Shown in pieces: positions 297 through 4,929 of a DNA stretch of 50,002 nucleotides. The notes beneath the pieces are model-generated. The model saw only the letters and a program-made list of their open reading frames with translations, had not been told where the DNA came from and made no database searches. The DNA lies in contig SUXT01000009.1 of assembly GCA_015060835.1 (NCBI GenBank), positions 1-50,002 of the forward strand, read 5' to 3'. Every line of letters starts with the position of its first letter. Position 1 is the first letter of the stretch. The position numbers and the translations under genes were made by a program. Origin of the DNA: Bacteroidales bacterium (GTDB taxonomy: Bacteria; Bacteroidota; Bacteroidia; Bacteroidales; Bacteroidaceae).

Positions 297-1589
297 CTAC
301 ACTTGCAACAAGTATTTTTTCAGTTCATTCTCCTCTGCGGAAATTTCGGTAAACACCCTTTTGCGTGAGAGCAGTTTTCCTATGTTTTCAGGTAGCTTGG
401 GCTTCTTGCCGATAGCCTTCTCCGTCACTTCTCCGAACTTTGCGGCACAGGCAGTGGATAGCCAGAAACCATCGACGTCAAGTTCCTTCGTCGCTGCATA
501 TCCTATTGCGCTGTGGGGGCACGATTGGTAATCATATTTCTCGTGCATCTCCTTGATTACAGCAACAATCTCCTCGTCGTTGGCGCTGAACCCACGCATC
601 TCCATGCGCAGTTTCTCAATATCGTTCCCGCACAAACACATCATCCTCTCGTAGTTGCTGGGCGCACCCACATCCATAGCGTTTGCAACCGTCTGCACAG
701 AAGCACGCGGACGGTACTCAGCACTCTTTAGAAACTCGGGAATAACGTCGTTGGCATTCGATGCCGCCACAAATCCTTTGACGGGCAGCCCCATTCTGCG
801 GGCAAGCATTCCCGCCGTCAGGTTGCCATAGTTGCCGCTGGGCACCACGATATATGGTAACTCCTTGCCTGTAAGCTCTTTCCATGCGCACCATCCGTAG
901 AAATAATAGAACGATTGCGGTATCCATCGCAGAATGTTTATTGAGTTTGCCGAGGTGATGTTTATCTCCTCGCGCATCTTCTCGTCGGCAAACATCGCCT
1001 TCACCATTCTCTGACAGTCGTCGAAAGTGCCGTTCACTTTCAGCGGGTATATATTTCCATACAGCGTAGTCATCTGCGCCTCTTGCAACGGGCTTATCTT
1101 GCCGGCAGGGTATAGCACCACCACCTTCACGCCTTTCACCCCATAGAAACCGTTGGCGACAGCACTTCCGGTATCTCCCGAGGTCGCAGTGAGCACGGTC
1201 ACCTCATCGTTGTCGTTGAGAATACCCATCATCTGCCCCATGAATCTTGCACCGAAGTCCTTGAAGGCAAATGTAGGCCCATGAAACAGTTCCAACGTGT
1301 TAATGCCCTCGGCAATGCTCTTCATCTTTATCGGAAAATCATACGCTCTCTCCACAGTGGTCTTTAATCTCTGCGCCTCCACATCGTCGCCGAAGAATAG
1401 CCCCGCCAGATAAAGTGCCATTTCCGAGTACGATTTTTTGTATAAATCCTCCACCACCTTCATCTCCGCAGCAGGGATGTGTTCGGGCATGAAAAGTCCT
1501 CCGTCGTGTGCCAATCCTTTAGTGGCAGCCTCTTTAAGCGAGAAAAATCTCTTCTCGGCTCCTCTGTCTCTTGTACTGAAATATCTCAT
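297..1589 (-). CDS. thrC: threonine synthase
   Basis: Converts O-phosphohomoserine to threonine, the last step of the pathway, using pyridoxal phosphate in the cytoplasm. The 430-residue protein has the normal family length. Its start (MRYFSTRDRG) is typical, and the motif HGPTFAFKDFGARF places the PLP-binding lysine at about K110. A phosphate-binding TATSGDTGSA loop follows near residue 135, and VVPSGNYGNL is present later. The gene lies 13 bp downstream of thrB and must share its transcript and leader. A hairpin at 228-264 follows the stop. No thrA (aspartokinase/homoserine dehydrogenase) is present in this operon, so homoserine must be made by genes elsewhere. Confidence 0.97.
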   Translation of the reverse strand: MRYFSTRDRGAEKRFFSLKEAATKGLAHDGGLFMPEHIPAAEMKVVEDLYKKSYSEMALYLAGLFFGDDVEAQRLKTTVERAYDFPIKMKSIAEGINTLELFHGPTFAFKDFGARFMGQMMGILNDNDEVTVLTATSGDTGSAVANGFYGVKGVKVVVLYPAGKISPLQEAQMTTLYGNIYPLKVNGTFDDCQRMVKAMFADEKMREEINITSANSINILRWIPQSFYYFYGWCAWKELTGKELPYIVVPSGNYGNLTAGMLARRMGLPVKGFVAASNANDVIPEFLKSAEYRPRASVQTVANAMDVGAPSNYERMMCLCGNDIEKLRMEMRGFSANDEEIVAVIKEMHEKYDYQSCPHSAIGYAATKELDVDGFWLSTACAAKFGEVTEKAIGKKPKLPENIGKLLSRKRVFTEISAEENELKKYLLQV

Positions 1590-1602: not shown

Positions 1603-2532
1603 TTAATCGTTTATAATCTGTGCTCCGATGTTCGAAACCTTTGTAACATAAATGTCGGCATTGTGTCCCAACTCCTTGAAATGCTTTTCCATTGCATAGC
1701 CGATGTTTGCAGCACTCTGCATGTTCTTCGAGAGAGCAAAAACCGACGGCCCCGCACCCGAAATATTCATTGCAAGTGCACCCATTGCCAGCACCTCTTC
1801 TTTCAGTTGGTCAAAGCCCGGAATGAACTGTTTCCTGTGAGGCTCGGCAACAACATCCTTCATCGACCGTCCCACAAGATAAATATCGCCCATGGTGAGT
1901 CCTGCCACGAGTCCCGCCACGTTACCCCATTGAGTAACAGCTGTGTGCATGGAAATCTCTTTCGGCAGCACCTGACGCGCCATTGCAGTGCTTACCATAA
2001 TCTCGGGATGTGCCACAGTGCAGCAGAACTCCTCGGGCACCGGCAGACGCACTATGTCGAGCGGCTCGTAGCTGCGCAGCAACACAACACCTCCCAAAAT
2101 AGCGGGAGCCACATTGTCGGCGTGGGGCACACCATTGCTTATAAGTTTCTCGCCCTCCATCGCAAATTCCACAAGTCTCTCGTCGCTGAAAGGTCTGTCA
2201 AGCGCCTCGTTCAGCGCATAAACGGCAGCGGCTGACGATGCTGCGCTCGACCCTATTCCGCTTCCGGGGAGAATCTTCTTCTCCACAGTTACCTCAATCT
2301 TTCTTTTCATTCCGGCTGCGGCCATCAGTGCTCTCACAGCGGGAGTTATCACATTCTTCTCAATATCATCGGGCAGTTCCACACCGCTCACATTGTTGAT
2401 AATCAGCTCGTCACCCTCGGAAACCTCAACGCTCACCACATCGCCAACACCATTAAGTGTCATACCCATTATATCAAAACCACAACCCATGTTTGCAACA
2501 GTTGCAGGTGCAAATGCTTTTACCTTTTTCAT
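1603..2532 (-). CDS. thrB: homoserine kinase
   Basis: Phosphorylates homoserine to O-phosphohomoserine, which ThrC then uses. The 309-residue protein is a GHMP-family kinase: the N-terminal AFAPATVANMGCGFD strand is followed by the nucleotide loop PGSGIGSSAASSAA at residues 89-102, and the C-terminal glycine-rich NISGAGPSVFAL motif is present. It is the first large gene of the thr transcript, about 170 bp below the thr leader peptide, and is separated from thrC by 13 bp. The start at 2532 is the first ATG in frame with a family-like N-terminus. Expression is probably set by attenuation in the leader. Confidence 0.96.
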   Translation of the reverse strand: MKKVKAFAPATVANMGCGFDIMGMTLNGVGDVVSVEVSEGDELIINNVSGVELPDDIEKNVITPAVRALMAAAGMKRKIEVTVEKKILPGSGIGSSAASSAAAVYALNEALDRPFSDERLVEFAMEGEKLISNGVPHADNVAPAILGGVVLLRSYEPLDIVRLPVPEEFCCTVAHPEIMVSTAMARQVLPKEISMHTAVTQWGNVAGLVAGLTMGDIYLVGRSMKDVVAEPHRKQFIPGFDQLKEEVLAMGALAMNISGAGPSVFALSKNMQSAANIGYAMEKHFKELGHNADIYVTKVSNIGAQIIND

Positions 2533-2698
2533 ACGAAATATATTTTCCTGTTTTTTTGTGAAAACAGGTGTTAAACGATTGTCGATTTACTAAACAGTAA
2601 ATCGTTGTTGATAAAAAATTAAAAGGAATTTTGTAGCCGCCGTCTGTTACCTTGACAGACCTGAAAAAGAAAAAACGAAACCTCAACGGCAAAGTGAA
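2533..2698 (-). promoter_or_regulatory. thr operon attenuator region
   Basis: Between the leader peptide and thrB lie several inverted repeats: 2642-2647/2655-2660 (GTCTGT/ACAGAC), 2583-2591/2596-2604 (perfect 9 bp) and 2547-2554/2561-2568 (8 bp). A T-rich run on the minus strand corresponds to 2661-2676. The sequence GCCGTTG of the minus strand (2690-2684) can pair with CAACGGC inside the leader peptide gene (2781-2775). That segment can instead pair with CCGTTGC at 2769-2763. Another alternation is AACCCC (2717-2712) with GGGGTT (2708-2703) or, less well, with GAGGTT (2684-2679). Such competing stems are the hallmark of attenuators. Which stem is the terminator is not settled by eye. Confidence 0.6.
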
Positions 2699-2818
2699 CT
2701 ATAACCCCCAAGGGGTTGTAGTTGTTGTAGTAGTGGTGGTAGTAGTGCCGCACACAGTAGTGGCAACGGTTATTGCCGTTGCTTCCAAAACTGTTCTTAT
2801 GTCGAGCATGTTTACCAT
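2699..2818 (-). CDS. thrL: thr operon leader peptide
   Basis: A 39-residue frame starts at 2818 and stops at TAG 2701-2699. Sixteen of its residues are threonine, including eleven in a row at residues 25-35, encoded by a mix of ACT, ACC and ACA, so this is not a simple nucleotide repeat. It also holds two isoleucine codons, and it ends Pro-Trp-Gly-Leu. It lies directly upstream of thrB on the same strand. In Enterobacteria thrL is a short peptide rich in Thr and Ile whose translation speed controls termination ahead of thrABC. The same logic is inferred here: scarcity of charged tRNA-Thr stalls the ribosome on the Thr run and changes leader folding. It bears no sequence likeness to E. coli thrL beyond composition, so it is an analogue by position and codon content. 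Confidence 0.85.
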   Translation of the reverse strand: MVNMLDIRTVLEATAITVATTVCGTTTTTTTTTTTPWGL

Positions 2819-2839
2819 GAATTGATATCTTGTTGGTCG

Positions 2840-2846
2840 CAAAGTA
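2840..2846 (-). promoter_or_regulatory. possible thr promoter -7 element
   Basis: On the minus strand TACTTTG (2846-2840) resembles the Bacteroidota -7 element TAnnTTTG, with one base less between TA and TTTG. Transcription would begin near 2834, about 15 nt before the leader peptide start. No TTTG is visible at the -33 position; a T-rich stretch lies there instead. Confidence 0.35.
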
Positions 2847-2849
2847 AAA

Positions 2850-3137: not shown

Positions 3138-3196
3138 TTCTTTTTTTCGATGAATGCCATCGGTGTTATCAATGGAAAAATCTTTTACCCGCTTAT
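3138..3196 (+). repeat. dispersed direct repeat, copy 2
   Basis: Second copy of the element at 174-231, with a 41 bp core (3156-3196) differing at one base. It ends 9 bp before the -7 element of the transporter promoter and so includes its -33 region. An ATG at 3154 lies inside the repeat in the transporter frame but is upstream of the promoter, which argues against it as a start. Confidence 0.8.
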
Positions 3197-3205
3197 TTAT
3201 TGTAC

Positions 3206-3213
3206 TACTTTTG
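3206..3213 (+). promoter_or_regulatory. transporter promoter -7 element
   Basis: TACTTTTG matches the Bacteroidota -7 consensus TAnnTTTG exactly. A TTTT at 3183-3186 stands in for the -33 TTTG at a 19 nt spacing. Transcription would start near 3219, giving a leader of about 20 nt before the ATG at 3241. Confidence 0.6.
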
Positions 3214-3240
3214 CGCCTTGAAAAAAATGGCAGTAATAAT

Positions 3241-4929
3241 ATGATAGAATTTTTGGAGAATATGTTTGTCGGTAATCCTGCCCAGTGGGGCGGTGGTGTT
3301 GCCCACTCTGTGTTGATTTTGGCATTGGTTGTTGCAATAGGTGTGATGTTCGGCAAGATTAAGATTGCCGGTGTCTCTTTTGGTGTAACGTGGATACTTT
3401 TTATAGGTATTGTGTTCGGTTGTTTGGGTTTCAATATAAATGGACACCTGTTGCATTTTGTTAAGGAGTTCGGCCTCATTCTTTTTGTCTATTCTGTCGG
3501 TTTGCAGGTTGGTCCCGGTTTTTTCTCGGCATTCCGCAAGGGTGGTCTTTCGCTTAATGTGATTGCCATGGTGGTGGTTGCTGTGGGTGTATTGCTTACA
3601 GTGGCGCTGCACTATGCTACGGGATTGCCCATCACCACTATGGTGGGTATTTTATCGGGTGCCGTGACCAATACTCCGGGATTGGGAGCTGCCCAGCAGA
3701 CGAACAGCGACCTTACAGGTGTGGATGCTCCGGAGATTGCAATGGCTTACGCAGTGGCCTATCCGCTTGGTGTCATCGGTTGTATATTGTCGTTGTTGCT
3801 GATGCGTTATATTTTCAGAATAGATATGAAAAAGGAGGAGGCTGCTGCAATGAATGTCGAGGGTGGCGGCGGTCAGGCTGTATCTACGTTGTCGCTTGTT
3901 GTGCGTAATGTTGCTATTGCGGGCAGGAGAATTTCGGAGTTGGAGCCTTTGATGGGTCGTCATTTTGTTGTGTCGCGCATTTGCAAGGCCGGTAATCCCG
4001 ATGTGGTGGAGGTGCCTACGGCTGATACGGTTCTCTCGGTTGGTGACAAGATGCTTTTGATTGCTAAGGTTTCGGATGTGGAGAGTATCGTGGCATTCAT
4101 AGGCGAGGTATGTGAGATGAGATGGGACAGCGACTCTTCGCAGTTGATTTCGCGTCGTGTGCTTGTTACAAGACCCGAACTGAACGGCAGACATCTTTCT
4201 TCGCTGAAAATCCGTAATAATCTTGGTGTAAATATTACGAGAATCAACCGTTCGGGTGTCGATCTTGTGGCTACTCCCCATTTGCGTCTTCAGATGGGAG
4301 ACCGTGTAACGATTGTCGGCAGCGAACTTGCTGTCTCTCATGCCGAGAAGGTGCTTGGTAACTCCATGAAGCGCCTCGACCATCCTAATCTTATTCCCAT
4401 CTTCATCGGCATTGCGCTTGGTTGCCTTATAGGTTCCATTCCTTTTGCATTCCCCGGTATTCCGCAGCCTGTGAAGCTGGGATTGGCGGGAGGTCCGTTG
4501 ATTGTGGCTATTCTTGTGAGCCGTTTCGGTCCTGATTGCAAACTTGTTACTTATACGACGATGAGTGCCAACCTGATGATTCGCGAGATTGGTATTTCGC
4601 TTTTCCTTGCTTGCGTGGGACTTGGAGCAGGTGATGGCTTTGTCGATACAGTGGTCAACGGTGGCGGATATGTGTGGATAGGTTATGGAGTTATTATCAC
4701 TGTCGTGCCGTTGCTTGTTGCGGGCTTTGTGGGACGTTATGTCTATGGTGTGAACTATTTCAAGCTCATAGGTGTGTTGTCGGGTGCCATGACCAATCCT
4801 CCGGCACTTGCCTATTCGAACGAGCAGACAGCTTGCGACTCGCCTTCGGTGGGTTATGCTACTGTATATCCGCTTACTATGTTCTTGCGTGTGCTTTCGG
4901 CTCAGTTGCTTATTATTTTCTTTATGTAA
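3241..4929 (+). CDS. AspT/YidE-family transporter
   Basis: A 562-residue inner-membrane protein of the aspartate:alanine exchanger (AspT/YidE/YbjL) family. Two similar blocks of about five membrane segments (roughly residues 10-180 and 385-562) flank a soluble middle with two TrkA-C-like domains, the typical architecture. Each block carries the family motif around SGAVTNTPGLGAA and SGAMTNPPALAYS, with the N-block motif near residue 140 and the C-block motif near residue 520. The substrate is not known; members exchange dicarboxylates or amino acids. I chose ATG 3241 because the in-frame ATG at 3154 precedes the promoter and the extra 29 residues are unlike the family. A strong terminator follows the stop. 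Confidence 0.88.
   Translation: MIEFLENMFVGNPAQWGGGVAHSVLILALVVAIGVMFGKIKIAGVSFGVTWILFIGIVFGCLGFNINGHLLHFVKEFGLILFVYSVGLQVGPGFFSAFRKGGLSLNVIAMVVVAVGVLLTVALHYATGLPITTMVGILSGAVTNTPGLGAAQQTNSDLTGVDAPEIAMAYAVAYPLGVIGCILSLLLMRYIFRIDMKKEEAAAMNVEGGGGQAVSTLSLVVRNVAIAGRRISELEPLMGRHFVVSRICKAGNPDVVEVPTADTVLSVGDKMLLIAKVSDVESIVAFIGEVCEMRWDSDSSQLISRRVLVTRPELNGRHLSSLKIRNNLGVNITRINRSGVDLVATPHLRLQMGDRVTIVGSELAVSHAEKVLGNSMKRLDHPNLIPIFIGIALGCLIGSIPFAFPGIPQPVKLGLAGGPLIVAILVSRFGPDCKLVTYTTMSANLMIREIGISLFLACVGLGAGDGFVDTVVNGGGYVWIGYGVIITVVPLLVAGFVGRYVYGVNYFKLIGVLSGAMTNPPALAYSNEQTACDSPSVGYATVYPLTMFLRVLSAQLLIIFFM

Follow-up and report, generated by a model that had tools for sequence, protein, structure and literature searches.

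The window, by which we mean the whole 50,002-nt stretch of Bacteroidales DNA analysed here, carries a short reading frame dense in threonine codons upstream of thrB. The question is whether this frame controls the genes behind it and, if so, by what kind of switch. The earlier note on this DNA had proposed ribosome-mediated attenuation as known for the E. coli thr operon.

A threonine-rich frame precedes thrBC

The features of the locus are as follows.
297..1589, minus strand: thrC, threonine synthase (profile match)
1603..2532, minus strand: thrB, GHMP-type homoserine kinase (profile match)
2699..2818, minus strand: leader ORF of 39 codons, 16 of them Thr (sequence and leaders of relatives)
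2714..2746, minus strand: 11 uninterrupted Thr codons (sequence; third-position bias in relatives)
2840..2847, minus strand: promoter-like box TTACTTTG, 5' of the leader (sequence)

The frame runs from an ATG at 2818 to a TAG at 2699 (a start at the ATG at 2809 is also possible) and translates as MVNMLDIRTVLEATAITVATTVCGTTTTTTTTTTTPWGL. Its 39 codons include 16 Thr codons, eleven of them consecutive (2746-2714) and of the three types ACT, ACC and ACA, just as the earlier note had reported; the run is followed by P-W-G-L and the stop codon. The position ahead of thrB was also given correctly: 166 nt separate the leader stop from the thrB ATG (2532), thrB scores above the NCBIfam cut-offs of NF002288 and TIGR00191, and thrC (TIGR00260) comes next. 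The locus shares with ribosome-mediated amino-acid leader attenuators a short ORF rich in codons for the product, placed upstream of the biosynthetic genes. The operon lacks thrA, as had been said. The genome has a single homoserine dehydrogenase match, on a different contig, and the 600 nt ahead of this separate thrA showed no Thr-rich frame, which fits the proposal that control is limited to thrB and thrC.

Elsewhere in the six frames of the whole 50-kb window the longest Thr run has four codons, and none of 2,000 first-order Markov copies of 2533-2846, read in three frames, contained a run longer than six. The same region folds better than its shuffled versions (z -3.0; 1 of 100 shuffles equally good). 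Tandem Repeats Finder detects an imperfect triplet array in the Thr run (score 30; a 12-base unit scores 47), so slippage could have contributed to its origin. The promoter-like box is to be compared with TAnnTTTG, which we take to be the Bacteroides -7 box; by eye, TATATTTG stands at a comparable position upstream of the leader in several relatives.

The gene divergent from the leader (3154-4929, plus strand) codes for an AspT/YidE-type antiporter. A short hairpin, CCTGTTTT..AAAAAACAGG (2568-2547, minus strand), lies ahead of the thrB start; the relative L030 has CCTATT..AATAGG at this position, a matching change, and some other relatives have different hairpins close to the thrB start.

Relatives keep threonine while the codons change

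Relatives were collected by scanning named genomes with ThrB, the best 80 of 115 were used, and for each the most Thr-dense short frame within 600 nt upstream of thrB was taken. By eye, 18 of these best 80 have a leader that ends in T-P-x-G (L029-L039, L042-L045, L047, L056 and L087), and a pattern search for the hairpin H1 described below recovers the same 18 loci and the window; the selection of the 18 was not blind to H1, because T-P-x-G codes for it. Among the other loci, several have a best Thr frame that overlaps an upstream coding gene.

Nine pairs of relatives, chosen by us, show 44 differences in the last ten codons before H1, of which 7, 5 and 32 fall on codon positions 1, 2 and 3, respectively. 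Two pairs, each with ten Thr codons, differ at third positions only (7/7 and 8/8); the bias is absent from the pairs L236/L247 (0, 2, 1) and L044/L047 (3, 0, 2). Given this concentration at third positions, selection appears to retain mostly threonine rather than the DNA sequence. Preservation of codon identity while the DNA changes, here 32 of 44 differences in the nine chosen pairs, is a feature of ribosome-mediated attenuators, and the conservation of Thr that the earlier note wished to see in related genomes is thereby observed. As Thr is kept while codons change, the frame is most likely a threonine-sensing leader peptide. Among 35 aligned sequences, the window included, the 20 codons before H1 contain between 3 (L036) and 13 (window and L003) Thr codons; Ile codons are interspersed in many leaders, up to 8 of the 20, with 1 in the window.

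A hairpin, H1, is encoded by the end of the leader

2704..2716, minus strand: H1 hairpin ACCCC-TTG-GGGGT, coding for T-P-W-G (sequence, relatives and thrA leaders)

The general form of H1 is ACCCC-loop-GGGGU at the leader end, coding for T-P-x-G. In the 35 aligned elements its Thr codon is always ACC and its Gly codon always GGG (35/35 each, an invariance that is partly built in because the set was found with models containing H1), whereas the 284 Thr codons outside H1 are divided between ACC (112), ACT (69), ACG (56) and ACA (47). H1 shows no covariation, four of its five pairs being invariant.

H1 is also present before thrA. A search of 198 genomes of the order gave 68 thrA matches, and upstream DNA was available for 65, counting the window's own and one region of only 52 nt. 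CCCC-loop-GGGG occurs within 300 nt upstream of thrA in 19 of these 65 Bacteroidales regions, and each of the 19 has, for the frame reading Thr-Pro at H1, an in-frame ATG upstream. Thr accounts for 0 to 6 of the ten codons that precede H1 in these 19 leaders, the lowest being L152 (0), L151 and L193 (1 each). With ACCCC-loop-GGGG at the end of its Thr frame, the window belongs to the set of Bacteroidales threonine leaders with H1 as defined here.

The pattern CCCCTTRGGGGGT gave 13 matches in 119 genomes, 8 before thrA, 1 before thrB and 4 that are not leaders, against 6 matches for its reversed control. This form of H1 thus looks Thr-specific. Since 9 of the 13 matches precede thrA or thrB and the other 4 are non-leaders, the idea that H1 is a general mark of amino-acid leaders was rejected.

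Shortened H1 variants such as ACCCTTAGGGGT were seen by eye at the end of Thr-containing frames before thrA (L142, L143, L191, L195 and L202); L142 and L143 are from the window's own family.

A conserved structure lies between leader and thrB

2763..2782, minus strand: hairpin A:A' (2782-2776 with 2769-2763) inside the leader; A could pair with B instead (folding)
2685..2690, minus strand: B, 5' arm of P1 (GCCGTT), 8 nt past the stop codon (comparison, folding)
2642..2660, minus strand: H2 hairpin GTCTGT-caaggta-ACAGAC (comparison)
2636..2641, minus strand: C, 3' arm of P1 (GGCGGC) (comparison, folding)

The earlier note had based its attenuator on two alternative pairings, and its arithmetic is right: GCAACGGC at 2782-2775 can pair with 2769-2763, or, through its CAACGGC, with GCCGTTG at 2690-2684. 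The A:B pairing is thus present in the window, where it exceeds codon shuffles with a 12-nt B arm (p 0.007) but not with a 19-nt B arm (p 0.15). Across relatives its support is weak. In L030, the nearest divergent relative, it does not exceed them with either arm (0.56 and 0.65); summed over 35 or 20 representatives, A:B is reached by none of 400 codon shuffles each, but for the 20 by 23 of 400 sets in which partners were swapped between species.

The structure that is conserved is a different one, absent from the earlier note. It consists of a stem, P1 (2690-2685 paired with 2641-2636), which lies between the leader and thrB and encloses the hairpin H2. The H2 loop (2654-2648) has the consensus CNAGG(Y)N, with AGG retained in 35/35 rows. 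By eye, a third hairpin could be accommodated in many relatives.

P1/H2 was compared with shuffled and slid pairings in two sets. For 14 sequences in a MAFFT-only alignment, with the structure named from L034, 93.2% of cells are paired (83.2% shuffled, 42-58% slid) and covariation is 0.374 against 0.171 (0/500 shuffles); 7 pairs, 2 in P1 and 5 in H2, have changed on both sides against 4.7 (13/500), and there are 17 further pair types against 15.5 (104/500). For 35 sequences aligned to the covariance model R2, and hence fitted to the structure, the paired cells amount to 94.7% (78.6% shuffled, 36-58% slid) and covariation to 0.432 against 0.149 (0/500). In this larger set, 9 pairs have changed on both sides against 7.5 (29/500), four of the six in P1 and five of the six in H2, and further pair types number 22 against 21.8 (304/500); these are the two of five covariation measures that are not outstanding. 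RNAalifold recovered H1 and H2 from the 35 sequences but not P1, which makes P1 the weaker claim. The P1 energy over 20 sequences, with the H2 arm length hand-set in four, is -165 against -101 +/- 9 for shuffled partners and -152 +/- 7 for species-swapped partners; the latter pair nearly as well because P1 is conserved in sequence.

Three near copies (L226, L235 and L238) and three matches at 18-34 bits (L243, L248 and L249) were left out of the 35. L243 and L248 match the model poorly, and L249 was rejected as a weak member, as it lies inside an unrelated frame without thrB or H1. L220-L225 and L227-L229 are repeats of elements already in the set.

Two roles for the H2 loop were considered and dropped. 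As a mimic of the tRNA-Thr anticodon (GGU in the window), it would need a base that many relatives replace by C after GG, and in the window the GGU sits off the anticodon position of a tRNA loop. A kissing pair with the CCU of H1 does not fit either, since AGG is retained in L047, L056, L087 and L231, which have no CCU. A downstream partner of arm C, which would be a hidden terminator arm, was not found in the window by eye. The leader stop is further downstream in four relatives, at the end of the P1 5' arm (L042, L043 and L045) or inside the H2 loop (L087), so that a ribosome finishing the leader would there cover a larger part of the structure.

Distribution of the element

A scan of 393 genomes of the order with the covariance model R1 found the window and three other loci. 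L138 and L139 precede thrA-type genes; the gene after L137 is an aspartokinase-like frame of only 216 residues, below the family cut-offs, and L137 was therefore rejected as an element before a full thrA. Among the three, only L137 has H2 (L138 and L139 judged by eye). R1 gave 31 matches in 250 genomes of the family to which L031's genome belongs; of the 30 examined, 29 have H1 and a downstream thrB, and L249 has neither.

With R2, 395 genomes of the phylum yielded the window and six weak matches (21-26 bits), in none of which a thr leader was seen. In 62 other thrB loci, L055 inside the window's ThrB clade being one of them, R2 detected no such element (highest score 11.4 bits, L089). Its best score in thrA leaders, 27.9 bits for L187, which by eye has no H2 loop, compares with 28.1 for L087, the weakest counted row. 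P1/H2 is known from Rikenellaceae-like thrB leaders, from the window's lineage and from upstream of one aspartokinase-like gene.

No Rfam 15 family reaches its gathering score in the window. With the threshold relaxed to E 10, nine matches with unrelated names fall in 2500-2900, none of them a Thr leader, and at E up to 1, ten relatives have four matches, none a leader or attenuator. Tentatively, and at somewhat less than even odds, we propose that Bacteroidales own a threonine leader RNA family not matched in Rfam, with a Thr-rich peptide ending in the RNA-constrained T-P-x-G hairpin, which in the thrB lineage would drive the CNAGG(Y)N-loop junction structure and give control of transcription free of an intrinsic terminator, via Rho or a loop-binding factor. 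The set yields a covariance model, a testable switch set by ribosome position, and an RNA whose output a U-tract terminator does not explain.

Predicted switching and output

The RNA 2836-2620 was folded with a ribosome masking 17 nt before to 13 nt after the first base of the A-site codon, a footprint size of our choice. The predicted probability of P1 is 0.94 on naked RNA, so absence of translation would look like starvation. With the ribosome stalled at Thr codons 1, 3, 6, 8 and 11, it is 0.82, 0.92, 0.55, 0.41 and 0.95, and with the ribosome at the stop codon 0.00; two earlier ribosome places give 0.30 (2794) and 0.83. H1 is predicted to be lost with the ribosome at Thr codons 8 and 11 and at the stop. 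In these foldings P1 behaves by antiterminator logic, with starvation permitting its formation.

We assign a probability of about 0.68 to the reading that the leader of thrBC is threonine-responsive and works by ribosome-mediated attenuation with a non-standard, perhaps factor-dependent, output. Under Thr shortage, a ribosome stalled in the Thr run would leave the P1 arms free, P1/H2 could form and the operon would be transcribed through. With ample Thr, a ribosome that has reached the stop codon would cover the P1 5' arm and block P1, which would lead to an early stop of transcription without a U-tract. We propose Rho, most likely, or another factor for this step because no terminator was found and the support for A:B is weak. 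The H2 loop might be the site of action of this factor, or else the Thr run, which is rich in C and free of G; this composition is not independent evidence, as it largely follows from the codon ACN. H1 is a candidate RNA polymerase pause hairpin that would hold the polymerase until the ribosome arrives.

A classical E. coli-type attenuator, in which an intrinsic terminator is set against A:B and other pairings, is unlikely, albeit the best of the alternatives. The Thr-rich leader and the A:B complementarity of the window agree with it, and a simple rule finds a stem with a U-tract in 6 of the 19 thrA leaders with H1. In the window, however, there is no terminator-like site on the minus strand of 2533-2846, and no intrinsic terminator of the E. 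coli type between H1 and the thrB ATG by the simple rule. Nor is a U-tract terminator conserved across the 35 sequences: 20 of them have some match to the rule, but these are scattered, and the recurrent one is H1 (11/35). At least 5 T in 8 shortly past P1 occur in 6/35, the window among them, and A:B is not clearly conserved. Of the E. coli-like attenuation proposed earlier, the sensing part is well supported by conserved Thr codons and by similar endings before thrA in other Bacteroidales; the switching part is not as in E. coli, no intrinsic terminator having been found between leader and thrB in the window.

Upstream of thrB in L066 and L084, a different Thr-dense frame (..VTTITT..) is followed by what looks by eye like a GC stem and a U-run, as the classical arrangement would have it. 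Canonical attenuators may therefore exist in other Bacteroidales thrB operons.

That H1 itself is a weak terminator, with U-rich sequence behind a hairpin that is opened when a ribosome stalls at the last Thr codons, seems slightly less likely still. H1 is nearly invariant and often has a U-rich stretch behind it in thrB leaders, the rule scores it as terminator-like in the 11/35 just given, and a ribosome at Thr codon 8 or 11 is predicted to abolish it. On the other hand, the stem is only 5 pairs long, with A and G breaking up the first bases behind it, the rule does not score H1 in the window, and the covarying H2 and P1 would be left unexplained.

Post-transcriptional action of the leader and P1/H2, on thrB translation or mRNA stability, is about as improbable: the failure to find a terminator suits it, as does an element end only 43-47 nt before the thrB ATG in L230, L231, L239 and L244, but in the 33 of 35 sequences with a thrB start placed by pattern this distance ranges up to 193 nt, and in 29 of the 33, the window included, it is 73-193 nt.

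Relation to known leaders

Attenuation with a non-standard output, the reading that we prefer, has partial counterparts elsewhere. The window resembles the E. coli thrL attenuator in having a Thr-rich leader peptide ahead of threonine genes, and the Ile codons interspersed in many of its relatives recall ThrL, which also contains Ile codons. It differs in the operon, thrBC instead of thrABC, and in having no detected intrinsic terminator, P1/H2 in its place and an H1 coded by T-P-x-G.

In a tnaC-type leader, a stalled ribosome shields the message from Rho, the stall being due to the nascent peptide and bound Trp. Such a leader would give an output free of a U-tract, as proposed for the window; there, by contrast, stalling would come from a lack of charged tRNA-Thr, with Rho as a candidate.

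The Bacteroid-trp RNA precedes trp genes. The window region matches no Rfam Thr leader (RF00506; PMC3766115), even at a permissive threshold. The Bacteroid-trp RNA, RF01692, is a likely cis-regulatory RNA of Bacteroidetes according to Table 1 of PMC2864571, but has no match in the window or in ten relatives. According to PMC7366714, long 5' UTRs of B. thetaiotaomicron contain small frames reminiscent of leader peptides. A literature search on attenuators, leaders and Bacteroidetes, which covered few subscription journals, showed no threonine attenuator for this phylum among the matches listed, and amino-acid sensing in gut Bacteroidales seems little described.

Origin of thrBC and its leader

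A close ThrB, with 89-100% identity, is present in just 3 of the genus's 44 genomes, where the remaining listed matches have 25-46%, and 9 of 399 genomes of the family have a ThrB at E up to 1e-30. In a ThrB tree of 86 rows, the window, L029 and L030 belong to a supported group of 15 (99/93); the remaining rows of this group carry the label Rikenellaceae, Alistipes or just Bacteroidales. The six other ThrB of the window's own family lie elsewhere in the tree. ThrC is above the cut-off in 15 of the 44 genomes of the genus; the other 29, many of them incomplete, have none above it, though a weaker criterion of E up to 0.001 gives a match in 42 of the 44.

In the four loci examined outside the window's lineage (L250-L253), thrC follows a second gene, which in two scanned loci is above the cut-off of the 'proposed homoserine kinase' TIGR02535 and is apparently the ThrB2 of PMC9026213. 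Given the rarity of a close ThrB in genus and family, its grouping with Rikenellaceae and Alistipes and the use of a second gene at the other loci, thrB was probably acquired from a Rikenellaceae-like donor, and thrC and the leader probably arrived together with it. A regulatory leader may have travelled along with its genes when threonine genes were replaced. Completeness of the genome is 86%, so that it is not proved to lack other thr genes.

The proposed homoserine kinase paired with thrC in these other genus members, L250-L253, is of the phosphoglycerate-mutase type. One further locus, L008 (G013:C95:550-756), has a ThrB-like stretch, 46% identical over 81 residues and with two internal stops, which is perhaps a remnant.
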